The notes under the pieces: generated by a model
What the model was told of the DNA's origin: nothing
The model's input: only the letters and a program-made list of their open reading frames with translations
Database searches by the model: none
Translations under genes and position numbers: made by a program
Assembly: GCF_902168135.1 (NCBI RefSeq)
Contig: NZ_CABHOL010000015.1
Coordinates: 310,001 to 374,000, forward strand
Length of the DNA stretch: 64,000 nt
Direction: 5' to 3'
From: an uncultured Fluviicola sp.
Lineage (GTDB): Bacteria > Bacteroidota > Bacteroidia > Flavobacteriales_D > Crocinitomicaceae
Part shown: one piece after another, positions 39,538-54,307 of the stretch
Position numbering within the stretch: position 1 is the first letter of the stretch
How the letters are laid out: the number at the start of each line of letters is the position of its first letter

Positions 39538-40832
39538 ATGAAAAACCTTTTCTACGTCCTCACTTTGTTCCTTTTAAGTGCCTGCTCTTCCGAAAAAACA
39601 GATGAAGAATTGCTGGAACAGGATCGAATTGCTTTAAATGAAAGCCTGGTTTCAGGGAAAGTGGTTCCTTACAAATTTGTAAAACTCATGGTTCGGGGTT
39701 ACGCTTCTGAAGATACTACTTCTGCAAAATTCAAAGCATTTAAGCGCGATTCCGATAAGTTAGTTCAAAAAATACTGGCGCTCAATCACGCGGATGAATT
39801 GTCGGTAAAGGATTATTGGGCGATGTACCAGGTGTACGATCAAATGGATGAATTCGTGATGCAAACAGACGAAGATGAGTTCCCGGTAGTAGTAGATGCC
39901 TTCCGGAAATTTTGGGACGGAACGAAAAGTACCCATTATTTCAAAGGAAAGGAAAAAGCAGCACAAGAAGCAAGGGAGCATGCTTTTCTGTCGGTATTGG
40001 CAATGGCAAGCAGCAGTTTGGGAAGTGATGTCGCATTGTATGAATGTGCAGAAACAGATGTGGAATTGCTTCCCGATTCGGAATTGAAAGGCCAGCTTCG
40101 TTTTGTAAGAGGGTTTGTGTTTATGCAAAAAGGATTTTACTATTTATCCGAAAACGAATATTCGAACAACCTGGAATGGCTCAAAAACAACAAGAACCTG
40201 GATTTGACTTATACCATCAATGCCTTGCAACTTGGAAAATTCAATCAGGAAGAGTCGTATACCGCATTCCGGGCGATGAACCATTTGTACCGGGGATAGA
40301 CCGGTTGATGATGGAACGGGAAATTGATCAGGAACGTGCACTGGAGGATTTTGAGCAGGTTTTGAAAGATTGTAAAAAATTGAAAATGGATAATGAAGCC
40401 GTTTGGGCTGTTGAAATATATGTTTACCTGGAGAAAGGGAAGAATGATAAAGCAATTGCTTCACTCAATAAATTGAAGAAAAGTAAACAGCTCACAGCAG
40501 ATGATAAAGCACTTGTTGATGAATGCATCGGGTACCTGCAAAAAGACGATTCGGAAAGTGCTTTGAAAGAAGTTTATGACAAGGTTTTCATGTTGAAGAT
40601 CGCAAGTTCATTCACATATAACCGGATTAAAAACGTGAATACAAATAAATTACTGAAAAACAATAAGGTTCCGAAGGCTTCCAAAATAGCTAAGAAAACC
40701 AAAGTATTGGAAAACGCGGTTGAGCAGATTTACAGCTTCAGCAACGGAGAAACACTGAAAGAATCTACGAAGAAAGCGGGCGAAGAGGGAGAAAGCCTGT
40801 TGGAAGAAGTAAAGGGATTGGTTGATTTTTAA
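39538..40832 (+). pseudogene. Frameshifted lipoprotein gene (one base short in a G-run)
   Basis: The first frame encodes a lipoprotein (lipobox LLSAC, cysteine near 16; then SSEKTDEELLEQDRIALNES) of 253 residues and stops at 40297. The protein continues in the next frame from about 40290 (GIDRLMMEREIDQERALEDF) to 40832, giving about 430 residues in all. One extra G in GGGG at 40292-40295 would join them (TAC CGG GGG ATA GAC). The second-frame sequence before this point is Cys/Arg-rich nonsense, which places the break here. The helical composition suggests TPR-like packing. This could be a true mutation, a phase-variable tract or a sequencing error. The function is unknown. Confidence 0.75.
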
Positions 40833-40854
40833 GATACGTAGTAGACAAAAAGTA

Positions 40855-40886
40855 AAAAAGCGAATTACGGTAGTAGTTCGCTTTTT
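40855..40886. terminator. Bidirectional terminator between the lipoprotein gene and tRNA-Ala
   Basis: AAAAAGCGAA (40855-40864) and TTCGCTTTTT (40877-40886) are exact 10-bp arms. A/T tracts on both sides allow it to stop the plus-strand lipoprotein message and the minus-strand tRNA transcript. Confidence 0.85.
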
Positions 40887-40894
40887 CTTTTTCG

Positions 40895-40968
40895 TGGAAA
40901 ATATCGGACTCGAACCGATCACCTCAACACTGCCAGCGTTGCGCTCTAGCCAGATGAGCTAATTTCCC
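40895..40968 (-). tRNA. tRNA-Ala(GGC)
   Basis: On the minus strand the molecule folds as a full cloverleaf of 74 bases. The acceptor stem GGGAAAT pairs with ATTTTCC and includes G3-U70, the alanine identity pair. The D arm is GCTC...GAGC, the anticodon arm is CAACG-CTGGCAG-TGTTG with anticodon GGC, and the T arm is ATCGG-TTCGAGT-CCGAT. The discriminator is A. CCA is not encoded. Its 5' side is preceded by three tandem repeats that copy its first 19 bases. Confidence 0.95.
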
Positions 40969-40969
40969 A

Positions 40970-41304
40970 TTTATTTTTTTTAGTTGTCACAACTAATTTG
41001 TATTAGCCCTAGTGCTGATGCTTCGATCAGCATCCTGACACGACCACTGGGCGTCGTCAGGACCAGATGAGCTAATTTCCCATTTATTTTTAGTCGTCAC
41101 AACTAATTTGTATTAGCTCTAGTGCTGATGCTTCGATCAGCATCCTGACACGACCACTGGGCGTCGTCAGGACCAGATGAGCTAATTTCCCATTTATTTT
41201 CTTCTAGTTATCTCAACTAATTGGTATTAGCTCTAGTGCTGATGCTCCGATCAGCATCCTGACACGACCATTGGGCGTCGTCAGGACCAGATGAGCTAAT
41301 TCCC
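40970..41304 (-). repeat. Three tandem 110-114-bp structured repeats derived from the tRNA-Ala 5' end
   Basis: Read on the minus strand, each unit begins GGGAAATTAGCTCATCTGG (the tRNA-Ala 5' end; the distal copy lacks one A), followed by about 50 bases that split the D-loop sequence, then CTAGAGC as in the tRNA, then a new tail. The tRNA-like segments repeat at plus-strand positions 40950, 41063, 41173 and 41287. Predicted pairings per unit: TTAGCTC with GAGCTAA; TCCTGACGAC with GTCGTGTCAGGA (2-base bulge); TGCTGAT with ATCAGCA; and TTAGTTG with CAACTAA. Differences between copies fall in loops or keep G-U pairing. They lie upstream of tRNA-Ala in its own direction and may be part of its leader. 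Confidence 0.9.
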
Positions 41305-41394
41305 GTGTTTCAATATTAATACAAATCTCGCAATTACAAATAACTATTTCGCAAAAAATGATGGTTTTAATTCGATCGGAAGTGTTTGTTTCGC

Positions 41395-42570
41395 TTAACT
41401 TTCGAAATTGTCCAACCAGTCAGGATCACTCATTTGTTCTTTAATGCGGTCAATTTTTCCAAAGGCAGTGACTAAAAGTTCTTTTTTGTTTTCGTCCACC
41501 AGGTCTTTCTTGAATTTTCCACCTTTCGGATCATTCATGATGTATTCTACAACCGCCTCTCCGATCACTTTCATCAGGTCGAATTTAGATACATCATCCA
41601 ATTCGATCCCTTTCAGGTCTTCGTTTTTTAATTCACTCAGCCAATCAGCTTCCATGTTTAATTGAGAGATGTTTTTATCCGGGATTTTTTCCAGGGTGTT
41701 TTCGTCCAGTGAAATTTGAAATCTTCTGAAATCAAGCTCAGGAATGATCTCGGAGCGGATGAGGTTGCTTTGCATCTTACTGGCATCCTGGCTTGATTCC
41801 CGCATCACCACATCCAGCCAGAACAAGACATCCGGTCCGTCCGGATTCTTGATACCTTTTGGTTCAATGAACTCAATGGTTGTTCCGGTACCAAAACTAA
41901 ACACACAAAGTTTGGAAAGATCGTATTTCTTTTCGGGGCCGTAATAAACGGCTTCCATAATTGCGGATAGCGTAGGGTTGTTGTAAGTTGTTGTACCACC
42001 GTCAACAAATCGCTCAAGAGGTGAGAAATAAGTTGGTGCCGACATGGTTGCTTCCATAACTGCCCGTAATAACACGTCTTTGTATGTTCCGATGTATTCT
42101 CCTTCATCGCAGAAACAGGTAAAGAAAGTTTCTTCACCGGCCGCCACATCTTTCGCCGTGATCAAAAGGTCCGTATCCGTTTTTGCACATACATCTTTCA
42201 ATGTGGTATTGCCCAGAATATCAGAAAGGGCCCGGCGGTAGTTTATCTTATCGTATAAGGGCGGATTTAATTTTCTGTTGGCGAGAATTCCCCTGCGCTT
42301 AAAGACTTTCGTAACGAGATTGATGTATAACTCTTCGATTTCCGCAGCACTTTTCCCGGAAGCTATAAGTCCGGCAATGATACCGCCTGTTGAAGTGCCC
42401 GATACCATGTCAAAAAGTTCGTGACAGGGAATTCCGGCGATTTCTTCCATTTTTTTCAATAATTGCAAGGTGAAAATTCCACGGATTCCTCCACCGTCGA
42501 GGGAAAGTATGGTTTTTCTATTCGGATCAATGCCTAATGCTTTGAAAGCTTTTTTTCGGGAATCGTTCAT
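41395..42570 (-). CDS. Patatin-like phospholipase
   Basis: A 391-residue lipid acyl hydrolase. The oxyanion loop DGGGIRG (LSLDGGGIRGIFTLQLLKKM, from about residue 22), nucleophile serine in GTSTGG (about residue 60) and catalytic aspartate in FVDGG (about 193) form the Ser-Asp dyad. There is no signal peptide. The C-terminal 150 residues are helical and not recognised. It hydrolyses acyl chains from phospholipids. CBASS effectors (CapV) belong to the same family, but there is no CD-NTase, E1/E2 or Cap gene beside it, so a defence role is not supported here. It stands alone between the tRNA-Ala repeat array and the arsenic operon. Confidence 0.9.
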   Translation of the reverse strand: MNDSRKKAFKALGIDPNRKTILSLDGGGIRGIFTLQLLKKMEEIAGIPCHELFDMVSGTSTGGIIAGLIASGKSAAEIEELYINLVTKVFKRRGILANRKLNPPLYDKINYRRALSDILGNTTLKDVCAKTDTDLLITAKDVAAGEETFFTCFCDEGEYIGTYKDVLLRAVMEATMSAPTYFSPLERFVDGGTTTYNNPTLSAIMEAVYYGPEKKYDLSKLCVFSFGTGTTIEFIEPKGIKNPDGPDVLFWLDVVMRESSQDASKMQSNLIRSEIIPELDFRRFQISLDENTLEKIPDKNISQLNMEADWLSELKNEDLKGIELDDVSKFDLMKVIGEAVVEYIMNDPKGGKFKKDLVDENKKELLVTAFGKIDRIKEQMSDPDWLDNFES

Positions 42571-42688: not shown

Positions 42689-43756
42689 TTAAGCTTTGCG
42701 GTATAGTTTCTTTTTCAGCCAAAATGAAATGCGCACCATGATGATTAAAGCAGGAACTTCTACCAACGGTCCGATAACTCCTGCAAAGGCCTGACCTGAA
42801 TTAATCCCGAAAACACCGATGGCTACTGCAATGGCCAGTTCAAAATTGTTCCCTGAAGCGGTAAAAGATAAGGCCGCGTTGTCCGAATAATCTGCTCCTG
42901 CCCATTTTCCGACCAAAAACATGAGAAAGAACATAATGGCAAAGAAAATGACCAATGGTATAGCAACACGTACCACATCCATAGGTATACGTATGATCAT
43001 TTCACCTTTCAGACTAAACATCACCACAATCGTGAATAATAACGCAATTAATGTGATAGGAGAAATGAATGGCAGGTACTTGTTTTTGAACCATTCTTCC
43101 CCTTTTAAACGAATCAAAGCAAAGCGGCTAATGACTGCTATTGCAAACGGGATTCCGAGGTAAATACCGACAGTTTTGGCGATTTCTACAATAGTAATGT
43201 CAATATTCAAGGCATTAATTCCGAATAGGGGCAAAACAATTTCCAAGTAAAAATAGGCATACAAACTGAAGAAAAAGACCTGTAGCAAACTGTTGATCCC
43301 AACCAATCCTGCAACCAATTCCCGGTTTCCTTCTGCCAATTCGTTCCAGACAATGACCATGGCAATGCAGGGAGCCAAACCAATGATGATGAGTCCGGTC
43401 ATGTATTCCGGGTAATCTTTCAGGAATAAGACCGCCAGGCTGAACATTAGAAACGGTCCAACAACCCAGGTGATGAAAAATGACACGACAAGTAGTTTGG
43501 GCTTTGCCATCACTTTTGGGATCTTCGAGAATTGCACTTTGGTTAAAGGCGGCACCATCATCAAAATAAGGCCTATTGCCAGGGGCAAATTGGTTGTTCC
43601 ATTTGAAAATGAGTTGATAAATTCATCGGCATCCGGAACAAAATAACCGATTGAAATGCCAATTCCCATAGCCAGGAAAATCCATAGGGTTAAAAATCGA
43701 TCTAAAAATCCGAGTTTTTTTCTTTCTGCTGCCGGAGCACAATTCGTTGCTGACAT
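42689..43756 (-). CDS. ACR3-family arsenite efflux transporter
   Basis: A 355-residue inner-membrane protein with ten helices, the arsenite exporter of the ACR3 type. The conserved MMVPPLTKVQF, GLAPCIAMVIVWNELAEG (the essential cysteine) and LSFTASGNNFELAIAVAIGVFG segments are seen. It exports As(III) using the proton motive force. It is the last gene of the arsenic operon, 8 bp after the arsenate reductase fusion gene. The N-terminal MSATNCAPAAERKK contains an extra cysteine. Confidence 0.95.
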   Translation of the reverse strand: MSATNCAPAAERKKLGFLDRFLTLWIFLAMGIGISIGYFVPDADEFINSFSNGTTNLPLAIGLILMMVPPLTKVQFSKIPKVMAKPKLLVVSFFITWVVGPFLMFSLAVLFLKDYPEYMTGLIIIGLAPCIAMVIVWNELAEGNRELVAGLVGINSLLQVFFFSLYAYFYLEIVLPLFGINALNIDITIVEIAKTVGIYLGIPFAIAVISRFALIRLKGEEWFKNKYLPFISPITLIALLFTIVVMFSLKGEMIIRIPMDVVRVAIPLVIFFAIMFFLMFLVGKWAGADYSDNAALSFTASGNNFELAIAVAIGVFGINSGQAFAGVIGPLVEVPALIIMVRISFWLKKKLYRKA

Positions 43757-43764
43757 AGGAATAA

Positions 43765-44736
43765 TTAATTGATTAATGAAAATGCGTACAATGTTTCGAG
43801 CGCAATTTGTTTGCAGCGCTCGTCGTATTTTTCTTCTTGAAACGGTGTGTTATCAAATGCTTTCGGATCATCGTAAGTGGTTCCGATCCTTAATTCTACA
43901 CCCGGAATAAACGGACAGTTTTCTTCTGCGTCACTGCAGGTCATAATTGCTGCGAATTCGGACATGGGGTTTTGCGAAGCATCATATACTTTGGAAAAAC
44001 AAACACTCGGCTCCCGGTCGTCCGCATAATAAACGTGGTAAACAGGGTTTTCGGTTTCAGTTGTCTTCTGAACCTCCATTCCTGCGCGTTTCACCGCTTC
44101 AATTGCATTGTGGTTGAAAGCGGTGGCTTCAGTACCTCCGGAATACGTGTGAACATTCGGGATTCCGTAGAAATCTGCAGCGGCTTTTGCCCAGATCTGT
44201 CCAAAATGGCTTCTTCGGGAATTGTGAGTGCAGATATATACCAAATGCGCTGGTTTGTTTTGATGTTGTTTCTCGGAAATATAGCTTCCGATTTTCTTTA
44301 GGATTGCCTTCCTCTCTTCTGAAATGCTGTCAAATTGAGGAATTAATTCTTCAAGGTACTTTTTTACATGAGGGTACATTGCTGTTTCTTTTTTTGGTTC
44401 TTCAATGAAAACTTCACCCGAAGCAAGTTTGTAGAACTCATCGAATTGAGCCTTGAACCGGTGGAGTTCTTTGTAATTGATTTGGTAAAACAGGTTTTGA
44501 TTTGAGCGCAGTTTACCTGTAAGAATTTGATGCTTTTTGAGCAGAGCAAGATTGTTTTTTATAGTCGAATCATGTAAACTGTTTACGGGTATAAGGTAAC
44601 CTTCCACGCTTCCACCATGTTTGGCAATTTCCAGGAAAGTCGCCAACCGGTTTGAATGAGAAAACAGCGAAAAATACCTGGACAATTCAAGCCAGTTCTT
44701 TTCGCTGTTATCAGTATCTGTTTCAAATTCATTCAT
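43765..44736 (-). CDS. Winged-helix domain fused to LMW-phosphatase-type arsenate reductase
   Basis: About 323 residues from the ATG at 44736, which leaves 16 bp after the upstream gene; the open frame runs on to 44814 and would overlap that gene. Residues about 15-100 are a winged-helix, ArsR-like domain (LFSHSNRLATFLEIAKHGGS, then STIKNNLALLKKHQI). Residues about 165-323 are a low-molecular-weight protein phosphatase fold with the CX5RS loop as CTHNSRRS, matching ArsC, plus SGGTEATAFN and TCSDAEENCPFIPG (the resolving cysteines). It should reduce arsenate to arsenite for export. The fused DNA-binding domain suggests self-regulation, but this is inferred. Confidence 0.85.
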   Translation of the reverse strand: MNEFETDTDNSEKNWLELSRYFSLFSHSNRLATFLEIAKHGGSVEGYLIPVNSLHDSTIKNNLALLKKHQILTGKLRSNQNLFYQINYKELHRFKAQFDEFYKLASGEVFIEEPKKETAMYPHVKKYLEELIPQFDSISEERKAILKKIGSYISEKQHQNKPAHLVYICTHNSRRSHFGQIWAKAAADFYGIPNVHTYSGGTEATAFNHNAIEAVKRAGMEVQKTTETENPVYHVYYADDREPSVCFSKVYDASQNPMSEFAAIMTCSDAEENCPFIPGVELRIGTTYDDPKAFDNTPFQEEKYDERCKQIALETLYAFSLIN

Positions 44737-44752
44737 CAGAAATGAATCTTTC

Positions 44753-45232
44753 TTAGCAACAACCTCCGCCCGGTGTGCAACAACCCGATTGTTCATTTGT
44801 TGGCGTAAGCTCACTCAAAGACAACTTTTGCTTATCTGCCGGAATTCCGCAAGCGTCCGAAGCTAAACAAGCCGTGTTTTTCGAAACCAGCACGAAATTT
44901 TCACCATTGAAGGAAAGGTCGTATTTCCCGATAGTATCACCCTGGTATTCTACTTCGATTTCATTGTCTTCAATCCCCAATTTCTCTTCAGAAAGCTGAA
45001 TGATTTTCAACAGTTTTCCCGGTTTCAGCCGGTGTTCGAAATCGTTGGCGTTCCACAATTGGAAATTAACCACCTGTTCCTTTCGGATTGTTCCCCCGCA
45101 ATCAATAAAGTGTTTTTGAATGCTTCCAACCTCAGTTACATGGAAATGTTCCGGTACAAATGACCCGTCGGGGGTTTGAAATGCTACGTTGTCTAACGTT
45201 GGCAAAATTGCTTTTATCTCAGATAACTTCAT
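44753..45232 (-). CDS. DUF6428-like protein with a C-terminal Cys-rich tail
   Basis: A 159-residue soluble protein that opens MKLSEIKAILPTLDNVAFQT and has PEHFHVTEVG and IDCGGTIRKEQVVNFQLW, the pattern of the DUF6428 family found in Bacteroidota arsenic operons. It ends QSGCCTPGGGCC, a four-cysteine tail suited to binding As(III) or another soft metal. Two further cysteines (TACLASDAC) lie upstream. It is between arsR and the arsenate reductase gene. A metallochaperone or sensor role is plausible but untested. Confidence 0.85.
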   Translation of the reverse strand: MKLSEIKAILPTLDNVAFQTPDGSFVPEHFHVTEVGSIQKHFIDCGGTIRKEQVVNFQLWNANDFEHRLKPGKLLKIIQLSEEKLGIEDNEIEVEYQGDTIGKYDLSFNGENFVLVSKNTACLASDACGIPADKQKLSLSELTPTNEQSGCCTPGGGCC

Positions 45233-45249
45233 CGTTTAAAAAATTTGAT

Positions 45250-45582
45250 TTAACAACATGATTTTTCTTTATGCTCCAATTGAAGAGTAGTATTGGCCAG
45301 ATACCTCTGTAATTCGGCAATAGCATCTTTGTCCACACAATAGCAGATTGCGGTTCCTTCAATATTTCCTTTTATCAGCCCTGCATTTTTCAACTCTTTC
45401 AAATGTTGTGAAACCGTTGGCTGTGCTAAAGGCAATACATTCACAAGATCTCCACAGATACAAGAATCAACCGAAATCAGGTGTTCCATGATTGCTATTC
45501 GCGCAGGATGCCCCAAGGCTTTCATCATGACTGCCAGTTTGTTTTGCTCTTCTGAAAAGTGATCCGTTTTAGTTGCTCCCAT
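45250..45582 (-). CDS. arsR: ArsR-family arsenic-responsive repressor
   Basis: About 110 residues from the ATG at 45582 (MGATKTDHFSEEQNKLAV). The frame extends 34 codons upstream through promoter-like sequence, so I reject that start. The winged-helix core is ALGHPARIAIMEHLIS and AQPTVSQHLKELKNAGLIKG. A CxCxDL-type motif, SCICGDLV, sits in the position of the As(III) site of classical ArsR, and the protein ends KSCC. It should repress the operon until arsenite binds. A dyad lies just upstream at 45601. Confidence 0.92.
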   Translation of the reverse strand: MGATKTDHFSEEQNKLAVMMKALGHPARIAIMEHLISVDSCICGDLVNVLPLAQPTVSQHLKELKNAGLIKGNIEGTAICYCVDKDAIAELQRYLANTTLQLEHKEKSCC

Positions 45583-45600
45583 GTTTATTGCATTAATACT

Positions 45601-45620
45601 ATATTGCAATATTACGATAT
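45601..45620 (-). promoter_or_regulatory. Probable ArsR operator
   Basis: ATATTGCAATAT (45601-45612) is a perfect 12-bp palindrome. It is extended by TACGATAT to give an imperfect inverted repeat ATTGCAATATTACGAT, 18 bp before the arsR start. A TAATATTG box on the minus strand overlaps it, so repressor binding would block the promoter. Confidence 0.55.
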
Positions 45621-45690
45621 AATGCTTTTGGTTCAACAAAAAATCAAAAAAATATCTGAAATCCGATAAGCTTTTAGGAAGCAACTTAAG

Positions 45691-47226
45691 CTATATGCCG
45701 TTTTCCATTACCTGGTAAGAAGGATCTTCCATCACGTTGATTTCAATGATCTTATCGGCATTGGTTAAGAGTTTTCTGCAATCGTCACTTAAATGACGCA
45801 AATGAAGCGTTTTACCCGCTTTTTGGTAGCGCTCTGTCAACCCATTCAATGCTTCAATGGCCGACATATCTGCAACCCTGCTTTCAGAAAAATCGACAAC
45901 AACCTTTTGAGGATCATTTGCGACATCAAACTTTTCGTTGAACGCAGAAACAGAACCAAAGAATAACGGTCCGAAGATCTCGTAATGCTTTACGCCCTGG
46001 TCGTCTGTAAACTTACGCGCCCGGATCCGTTTGGCATTTTCCCATGCAAAAACCAGTGCAGAAATGATCACCCCGATCAAAACAGCCAACGCCAGGTTGT
46101 GCATGAATACGGTAATCAAAGTTACAATGAGCATGATAATAATATCGGCTTTTGGCATTCTGCCAAAGATGCGTAAACTCGTCCATTCAAAAGTGCCGAT
46201 TGCTACCATGATCATCACTCCTGTTAATGCTGCAATGGGTAATTTTCCAATTACGGGTGCACCGAAAAGAACGATGATCAGAATGGTTAATGCAGAAACA
46301 ATTCCCGAAAGCCTTGCTCTTGCTCCGGCTGATAAATTAACAAGTGTTTGAGCGATCATCGGGCAGCCTCCCATTCCGAAAAAGAACCCGTTCAGCATAT
46401 TAGCGCCTCCCTGGGCAATACTTTCACGGTTTCCGTTTCCTTTGGTTTGGGTTATTTCATCTACTAAATTCAAGGTCAGCAAGCCTTCTGTCAAACCAAC
46501 TCCCGCCATGATGGCAGCATACGGAGCGATGATCCACAATGTATTCCATTCCATCGGAACAAGCGGAATATGGAAAGGTGGTAATCCTCCCTGAACAGAT
46601 GCAATGTCGCCAACGGTTTTAGTATCTATTCCAATGAAATATACCAATCCGAATATCACCACAATTGCCAAAAGTGATGCAGGAACCGCTTTGGTGATTT
46701 TCGGGATCAGGATTACCAATCCGATTGTCAAAGCAACTAATCCCATCATAACCCAGAGCGTTGAGCCTGTCATCCATTCGGAATTTTTACCTGTTGTTTT
46801 AAATTGTGAGATCTGTGCAAGAAAAATAATGATTGCCAAACCGTTTACAAAACCATACATCACGGACTGCGGCACTAAACGAATAAACTTTGCCAGTTTG
46901 AAAAGACCAACGAGAATTTGGAATACTCCCGCAAGTGCAACCGCAGCAAAAACATATTCCAGCCCATGAGATTGCATCAAGGCTATGAGAACAATAACGG
47001 TTGCGCCTGCACCACCGGAAATCAATCCCGGTCTTCCGCCAAAAATAGATGTAAATATCCCCATGATAAATGCTCCGTAAAGTCCTGCAAGCGGTGGAAA
47101 TCCTGCCAATAAGGCAAAGGAAAGGGATTCGGGGATCATAGTCATTGCAACGGTTAATCCTGCCAGGATTTCGGTCTTGTAATTTACCTCTTGTTTGAGG
47201 TCAAATAAATTAAAGTACTTTTTCAT
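45691..47226 (-). CDS. SulP-family anion transporter with STAS domain
   Basis: A 511-residue inner-membrane transporter. About 12 to 14 helices cover residues 20-400, with the SulP signature region ESLSFALLAGFPPLAGLYGA and a GGAGATVIVLIALM segment. A cytoplasmic STAS domain follows (about 410-505: VDFSESRVADMSAIEALNG). Bacterial members carry sulfate, bicarbonate or dicarboxylates; no gene here settles the substrate, and it may simply neighbour the arsenic operon. The leader of about 140 bases has mutually exclusive pairing options. Confidence 0.92.
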   Translation of the reverse strand: MKKYFNLFDLKQEVNYKTEILAGLTVAMTMIPESLSFALLAGFPPLAGLYGAFIMGIFTSIFGGRPGLISGGAGATVIVLIALMQSHGLEYVFAAVALAGVFQILVGLFKLAKFIRLVPQSVMYGFVNGLAIIIFLAQISQFKTTGKNSEWMTGSTLWVMMGLVALTIGLVILIPKITKAVPASLLAIVVIFGLVYFIGIDTKTVGDIASVQGGLPPFHIPLVPMEWNTLWIIAPYAAIMAGVGLTEGLLTLNLVDEITQTKGNGNRESIAQGGANMLNGFFFGMGGCPMIAQTLVNLSAGARARLSGIVSALTILIIVLFGAPVIGKLPIAALTGVMIMVAIGTFEWTSLRIFGRMPKADIIIMLIVTLITVFMHNLALAVLIGVIISALVFAWENAKRIRARKFTDDQGVKHYEIFGPLFFGSVSAFNEKFDVANDPQKVVVDFSESRVADMSAIEALNGLTERYQKAGKTLHLRHLSDDCRKLLTNADKIIEINVMEDPSYQVMENGI

Positions 47227-54168: not shown

Positions 54169-54175
54169 GTGTTCG

Positions 54176-54249
54176 TGACCCCGGAGGGATTCTAACCCCC
54201 AACCCTCAGAGCCGAAATCTGATGCGCTATACAGTTGCGCCACGGAGCC
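54176..54249 (-). tRNA. tRNA-Arg(TCG)
   Basis: The minus strand gives a cloverleaf of 74 bases: acceptor GGCTCCG with CGGGGTC (two G-U pairs), D arm GCGC...GCGC, anticodon arm TCAGA-TTTCGGC-TCTGA with anticodon TCG, and T arm GGGGG-TTAGAAT-CCCTC. The discriminator is A. It reads CGA arginine codons. Its first 16 bases plus 6 bases of 5' flank are repeated at 54286-54307. Confidence 0.93.
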
Positions 54250-54285: not shown

Positions 54286-54307
54286 GTTGCGCCACGGAGC
54301 CAGTTTG
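54286..54307 (-). repeat. Duplicate of the tRNA-Arg 5' end (22 bp)
   Basis: The 22 bases match 54234-54255 exactly: the first 16 bases of tRNA-Arg plus 6 bases of its 5' flank. The copies are 52 bp apart. On the minus strand the copy is followed by CTCTTTTTT, and a GATTTTTG near-consensus -7 box lies between the copies. Confidence 0.9.

Follow-up and report, generated by a model that had tools for sequence, protein, structure and literature searches.

We consider it likely that the three tandem units that precede the tRNA-Ala(GGC) gene of the window (the whole 64,000-nucleotide stretch of uncultured Fluviicola DNA analysed here) are ORF-less copies of a mobile element of the Bacteroidota, a double hairpin that enters the loops of tRNA genes and was probably spread by GIY-YIG nucleases. 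Among homologues, the hairpins covary, the sites in tRNA loops recur, and the borders lie mostly at tRNA ends. Furthermore, occupancy varies between relatives, near identical hairpin pairs occur in two different tRNAs, and the hairpins are linked to GIY-YIG genes.

The array reads on the minus strand and comprises three head-to-tail units (41304-40969; 113, 110, and 113 nt). Each is built in the same order, with nucleotides 1-19 of tRNA-Ala followed by two hairpins (H1 and H2), the heptamer CTAGAGC, which is again tRNA sequence, and a tail hairpin. H1 and H2 together are referred to as H, which is ~50 nt long in the window units. The features are as follows.

41304-41192, minus strand: unit 1 (distal), with tRNA-Ala nucleotides 1-19 lacking one A in GGGAAATTAGC, then H1 and H2, CTAGAGC, and the tail hairpin
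41236..41286, minus strand: H of unit 1 (covariance model R2, 59.5 bits)
41191-41082, minus strand: unit 2, same build, limits set by reading
41122..41172, minus strand: H of unit 2 (R2, 59.5 bits)
41081-40969, minus strand: unit 3 (proximal), GAGC changed to GGGC, limits set by reading
41012..41062, minus strand: H of unit 3 (R2, 59.5 bits)
40968-40894, minus strand: intact tRNA-Ala(GGC), called by ARAGORN and cmscan
40855..40886, minus strand: inverted repeat 3′ of tRNA-Ala, a possible terminator, from the repeat search

Sequence reading, tRNA calls, and the repeat search all bear out the original prediction of three tandem units before tRNA-Ala, and the A said to be missing from the distal copy is indeed absent, in GGGAAATTAGC. 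The repeat search returned three copies of 110 nt, spaced by 110 and 114 nt, the other two being 97% and 89% identical to the proximal one. Folding of a single unit reproduced the proposed structure (a closing stem, a pair of inner hairpins, and the hairpin of the tail), at a predicted −37.3 kcal/mol compared with a shuffled mean of −24.2 (z −3.94; none of 200 shuffles was as low). The units contain no ORF of at least 60 amino acids and are not called as tRNA, ARAGORN and cmscan reporting the intact tRNA alone at the array; nor did they match any Rfam family at the gathering score or at E≤5. tRNA-Ala(GGC) gave a single match for this tRNA genome-wide at E≤1e-8, the only full-length BLAST matches to the units in their own genome were these three, and R2 added one further weak match there (contig C52, 26 bits). 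The inverted repeat at 40855..40886 was scored as terminator-like on the plus strand only; on the minus strand, too, it is followed by a run of T. Elsewhere in the window, positions 42689-47226 (minus strand) resemble, by eye, an arsenic resistance cluster (an ArsR-like regulator, a transporter, and a reductase-like protein) with a SulP-like transporter.

When 59 genomes (G000 and relatives) were searched at the DNA level, a two-unit array was identified before tRNA-Val in G050, which belongs to another family of the order. Since each of these units opens with the first 19 nt of the G050 tRNA-Val, the architecture is common to G050 and the window even though the tRNA differs. In the G050 region, the intact tRNA alone exceeded the Rfam threshold; the many sub-threshold matches were taken as chance. 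Homologous units also precede tRNA-Asn, Val, Met, and Ala elsewhere, and the closest parallel to the window is L223, a two-unit array before tRNA-Ala in which H is inverted. A first covariance model, R1, matched 197 of 299 genomes; most among the matches listed were 25-27 nt tRNA starts, which we did not count as elements. R2, which was then built from 13 hairpin cores, matched 39 of the 240 genomes searched in the family.

A DNA pattern for H retrieved 67 stretches in named genomes. Seven of these have titles outside the Bacteroidota (Deltaproteobacteria, Pseudorhodobacter, Gammaproteobacteria, Krumholzibacteriota, Rhodobacteraceae, Granulicella, and Micrarchaeota), lie near no tRNA, and were taken as chance. 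The other 60, none with a title outside the Bacteroidota, bear the titles of Flavobacteriales and genera or families within it, Chitinophagaceae, Chitinophagales, Saprospiraceae, Cytophagales and relatives, Bacteroidales, Sphingobacteriales, Bacteroidota at large, or simply "bacterium"; isolates with the pattern are Fulvivirga imtechensis AK7, Phaeodactylibacter xiamenensis, Niastella soli, Terrimonas pollutisoli, and Flavobacterium dankookense. The full pattern set of 77 rows in 68 loci was reduced to 67 rows in 58 loci by removing, as chance, eight rows in eight loci (title outside the Bacteroidota, or viral, with a tRNA near none), as well as L171 and L205, in which the second hairpin was not found (L205 has a tRNA-Met nearby). 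Carriage by phages or plasmids was rejected: five plasmid and five phage matches were confined to query positions 328-411, where 337-411 is the tRNA itself, and in the sole viral contig with the pattern the second hairpin was not found and no tRNA lay nearby. At several sites, namely L197/L224, L199, L220, and the group L184/L201/L206/L209/L213/L217, no tRNA was found within 1.5 kb of H. Near identical H is shared by L184, L201, L206, L213, and L217, all from one Chitinophagaceae MAG, and by L209; the sequence after it is TGCGACGCAA in the five from the MAG and TGCGATG in L209. A search of titles and abstract starts in open-access PMC returned no description of the arrangement.

As the three window copies are too alike for a test of structure, homologues were used instead. 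In 13 distinct cores, 96.2% of pair cells are standard pairs, and 36 cells show two-sided changes, a count that none of 500 shuffles reached, compared with 11.7 in shuffles; slid controls of the same test gave 25-51% pairing. The 107 aligned matches (92 distinct rows) yielded 205 two-sided cells, in which some matches found on both strands are counted twice; the 13-core test is free of such double counting. Among rows with tRNA-fitting flanks, G-U exceeds A-C mismatches by 36:10 in the tRNA-sense strand (D-arm 21:10, T-arm 15:0), with a p-value that is too small given that the sequences are related. This excess hints at pairing of the tRNA-sense strand, as RNA or as single-stranded DNA. Judged by these alignments, the two adjacent hairpins are under structural constraint. 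The suggestion that selection acts on RNA structure holds up as far as hairpin constraint is concerned, through covariation and the G-U excess, and the proposed comparison of homologues turned up covarying stems. By eye, a hammerhead-like reading of CTGACGA in H1 was discarded: the first bases vary (CATGACGA, CAGACGA) and GAAA does not follow.

The flanks of H were compared with 94 distinct tRNA sequences taken from the same loci. With a threshold of 10.5, which is the best score of 119 random controls and was set after seeing them, 40 of 67 rows (33 of 58 loci) scored higher compared with 0 of the 119 controls; these rows are 27 D-arm and 13 T-arm cases, and the remaining 27 rows did not outscore the best control. 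Intact tRNAs were found no further than 1.5 kb from 40/58 pattern loci versus 34/832 control positions. From these junction scores, where the flanks fit a tRNA, the partial tRNA copies are interrupted by H in the D-arm or in the T-loop. D-arm copies mostly precede the intact gene and T-loop copies mostly follow it. Of the 24 D-arm rows to which an intact tRNA could be assigned, 23 are upstream of that tRNA; the exception is one of the two L192 copies, which is downstream. Borders were located by the point at which identity with the intact gene ends, since a count of alignments covering tRNA nucleotide 1 cannot show a border when the alignment cannot extend past the tRNA. In the D-arm class, identity ends no more than 8 nt before nucleotide 1 in 19/24 rows, and 20-53 nt before it in the other five, all of which are in multi-unit loci. 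All ten T-arm rows with an assigned intact tRNA lie downstream, and identity ends at most 6 nt past the tRNA 3′ end in seven; it continues for 35-256 nt past that end in L210 (two rows) and L211, and the duplication runs beyond it in L082 and L062 too.

Within the T-arm class, H is directly before TTCGA or TTCGAT in 10 of 13 rows, and on the other side of the T-loop in L208, L211, and L214. Exceptions to the usual order, in which a T-loop copy is upstream of the intact tRNA, are found outside the tested set in L084 and L024/L107. At L024/L107 (G153:C1), the tRNA-Met copy upstream of the intact gene is interrupted by H in the T-loop and by a further hairpin-like stretch in the D-loop; a GIY-YIG gene and another copy of H follow. 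There is also a third kind of site, with H between CAG and CCAT near a terminator-like hairpin (L022/L053, L028/L056, L062/L105, L086, and L092); these sites in part adjoin tRNA-Asp and GIY-YIG genes.

The presence or absence of H units varies among relatives. In genus g22, the tRNA-Asn locus was matched in 43 of 86 genomes, with 31 loci parsed, 27 of them flanked by SSB. Five of these 27 hold units (one each in G208, G261, and G265, two in G174, and three in G160, the distal unit of both G174 and G160 being H1 only), and 22 are without units in the 130 nt before the tRNA; the tRNA-Asn site of G245 is uninterrupted and has a similar promoter. In the genus of the window, the tRNA-Val locus was matched in 11 of 14 genomes (not G000) and parsed in ten. 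A GIY-YIG gene and a second tRNA 3′ motif are located downstream in G002, G003, G008, and G013, with H itself observed in G002 and G008; G001 retains a GIY-YIG remnant, G007 has a different GIY-YIG gene and a degenerate tRNA piece, and G009, G010, G011, and G012 have neither. A third locus lies within the window.

54286..54307, minus strand: 5′ piece of tRNA-Arg(TCG), 22 bp identical (start plus 6 nt of leader), no hairpins
54175..54249, minus strand: intact tRNA-Arg(TCG), with the 5′ piece just upstream

The orthologous site of G002 contains, in order, a tRNA-Arg copy whose T-loop holds H, a GIY-YIG gene, and the intact tRNA. The 58-nt H of tRNA-Val and that of tRNA-Arg in G002 are the same at 56/58 positions, and their outer flanks differ. 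At the array locus, where a neighbouring protein is 98% identical, G002 is missing the promoter, the array, and the tRNA start, so this genome offers no intact empty site for the window locus. A truncated tRNA-Ala remnant follows a patatin-like gene in G002:C257 (L117, L167), and an intact tRNA-Ala is present elsewhere in G002. G001 and G012 have tRNA-Ala without the array, in other surroundings.

GIY-YIG ORFs, which were detected by regular expression (Pfam PF01541 confirmed 4/4 proteins tried), lie within 1.2 kb of 24/58 loci versus 15/832 control positions. The two sets are not matched: the 58 loci come from the model scan and include the window and G050, and the 832 controls are repeated draws from pattern loci, >3 kb from H. 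An intact tRNA is near 35 of the 58 model-scan loci and neither a tRNA nor a GIY-YIG ORF is near 17; in the pattern set, a GIY-YIG ORF is near eight of 58 loci. The genes are chromosomal in the Bacteroidota and encode about 80-110 amino acids; at L210 (Flavobacterium dankookense DSM 25687), two copies stand next to tRNA-Val. In nine loci (L074, L076, L082, L089, L093, L094, L097, L100, and L106), the ORF ends inside the matched H, for example with PDELLLIKQLSGC, and in L082 and L097 a piece of tRNA T-stem is located just before the part of the ORF that lies in H. The ORF of L077 stops within H1; that of L087 stops in a different hairpin-like copy, which lies upstream of the matched one. At two loci, L082 and L062, the repeat goes on into a truncated second ORF start. 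It could be that H and GIY-YIG genes are linked only because both gather at tRNA genes. No GIY-YIG ORF was found in the array or the window, and the genome to which they belong has seven matches. The window units are at most ORF-less derivatives, since the ORF is absent there and present at related loci. In the same genome, GIY-YIG genes stand beside tRNA-Asp and tRNA-Leu (L110 and L115, on C44 and C17), where partial tRNA 3′ copies have a T-loop with a hairpin different from H.

Could the array have arisen without any dedicated mobility machinery, from an old hairpin insertion in a tRNA copy that was amplified by slippage or unequal crossing-over? The near identity of the units, the variable copy number at the tRNA-Asn locus, and the lack of an ORF of 60 amino acids in the units would all fit such a neutral tandem duplication. 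However, it does not readily account for the recurrence of H, with covarying stems, in several tRNAs at recurrent sites, for the 56/58 identity between two tRNAs of G002, or for the GIY-YIG association, and we regard it as unlikely. Among the possibilities first raised for the array, that of a recombination product came nearest the truth, as the homologues show insertion together with tandem duplication.

No E. coli-type promoter was found in 40700-41700. The consensus of the Bacteroidota −7 element is TAnnTTTG, and a candidate is found in the window.

41318-41311, minus strand: candidate Bacteroidota −7 element TAATATTG, shortly before the array, one mismatch to TAnnTTTG

By reading, TTTG is absent from the unit sequence. 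TAnnTTTG occurs no more than 70 nt upstream of the distal copy at 11/21 D-arm loci versus 171/4000 random windows, where for three of the 21 (L176, L191, and L207) another hairpin copy lies further upstream than the one counted as distal. Based on these motifs and the window candidate, the units probably lie within the tRNA transcription unit and are co-transcribed; those of the window would probably be transcribed with tRNA-Ala as an inert leader, which processing then removes.

A position between a candidate promoter and the only match for tRNA-Ala(GGC), the strong predicted fold, and a conserved structure with a 36:10 G-U bias in the tRNA-sense strand would also suit a cis-acting structured leader that controls the processing or expression of tRNA-Ala. 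The structural constraint and the position stand from the original interpretation, and its dedicated leader and RNase P decoy are not supported, because T-loop copies of the hairpins lie downstream of tRNAs, other copies lie at sites near which no tRNA was found, and orthologous tRNA loci of relatives lack them. The leader is further weakened by the congeners G001 and G012, which have the same tRNA and no array, by the mostly downstream position of the T-loop copies, and by a presence that varies among relatives; we judge it improbable. A tRNA mimic that titrates RNase P or another tRNA enzyme is very improbable: the unit does start at, or a few nucleotides from, the mature tRNA 5′ end, but the units are not called as tRNA, the copied 5′ end has, by inspection, no acceptor or T-arm partner, and T-loop copies usually lack the tRNA 5′ end altogether.

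We therefore return to the mobile double hairpin. Its core H (two adjacent hairpins, mostly 47-60 nt, and longer where a loop is long) would enter a loop of a tRNA gene, either in the D-arm or in the T-loop, there usually between G and TTCGA. Part of the tRNA would be copied along with the insertion, which usually leaves an intact tRNA next to H; entry into the D-arm would add the tRNA 5′ part and a new leader, and entry into the T-loop mostly the 3′ part. We infer the cutting and the movement. Small GIY-YIG nucleases encoded by fuller versions of the element would cut tRNA loops, and recombination repair would fill the break with copies of H and of the tRNA piece. Tandem units would result, in a way similar to the amplification of tRNA loci by SegB. 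The window units may have been left after loss of the ORF, or may have been moved by a nuclease encoded elsewhere.

The proposal in its entirety is one that we put forward tentatively, with slightly less than even confidence. It envisages a minimal mobile element spread throughout the Bacteroidota, with the hairpin pair as the mobile unit, which would enter both elbow loops of tRNAs and bring a piece that usually ends at the mature tRNA end, while the intact tRNA survives. It would be driven by small GIY-YIG nucleases, some with the hairpin fused in frame as their C-terminus, and ORF-less copies moved in trans would form tandem arrays linked to tRNAs. If true, this would account for the clustering of small GIY-YIG genes and tRNA fragments at Bacteroidota tRNA genes, would supply a candidate enzyme for bacterial counterparts of mitochondrial double-hairpin elements, and would provide natural substrates for studying how a nuclease can land in a conserved, needed gene while the host survives. 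That question is made testable by the orthologous sites, occupied and empty, described above.

Several known systems share some of these properties. The rtT repeats of the E. coli tyrT locus (Rfam RF00391) are tandem repeats with a piece of the tRNA 3′ end; the window repeats likewise contain part of a tRNA, whereas here it is a 5′ piece and there is no Rfam match. Integrative elements that target tRNA genes insert in the gene and restore an intact tRNA. Here, too, an intact tRNA remains after insertion, but the units are ~110 bp and have no ORF of at least 60 amino acids, and so no recombinase within, and the D-arm class duplicates the 5′ side of the tRNA.

A closer parallel in enzymology is SegB, a phage GIY-YIG nuclease which, in the available part of its description, cuts in tRNA genes at the motif RAWTSGAAC (23/83 sites) and is needed, along with recombination genes, for segmental amplification (PMC13096335). 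As with SegB and related free-standing phage GIY-YIG homing nucleases, a GIY-YIG protein is found here beside tRNA genes, and by inspection the reverse complement of the SegB motif fits the T-loop GTTCGAATC, the place that H interrupts. Unlike here, that part of the SegB account mentions neither a double hairpin nor partial tRNA copies.

In form, a close parallel is offered by the mitochondrial double-hairpin elements (DHE) of Allomyces and repetitive hairpin elements (RHE) of sponges, which, according to the portion of PMC2800124 available, are short, repeated insertions of a hairpin or double hairpin in intergenic regions and structural RNA genes, with stems more conserved than loops and numbers that differ among close relatives; the Allomyces elements are described there as lacking flanking duplications. 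In contrast, the H elements are bacterial, are flanked by duplicated parts of a tRNA with an intact tRNA alongside, and are linked to a GIY-YIG ORF. As for dispersed copies, the genome of the window has one full H locus and other T-loop hairpins at tRNA-Asp and tRNA-Leu. On the comparison that this source allows, H resembles DHE/RHE in being a structurally constrained pair of hairpins whose presence varies among relatives.
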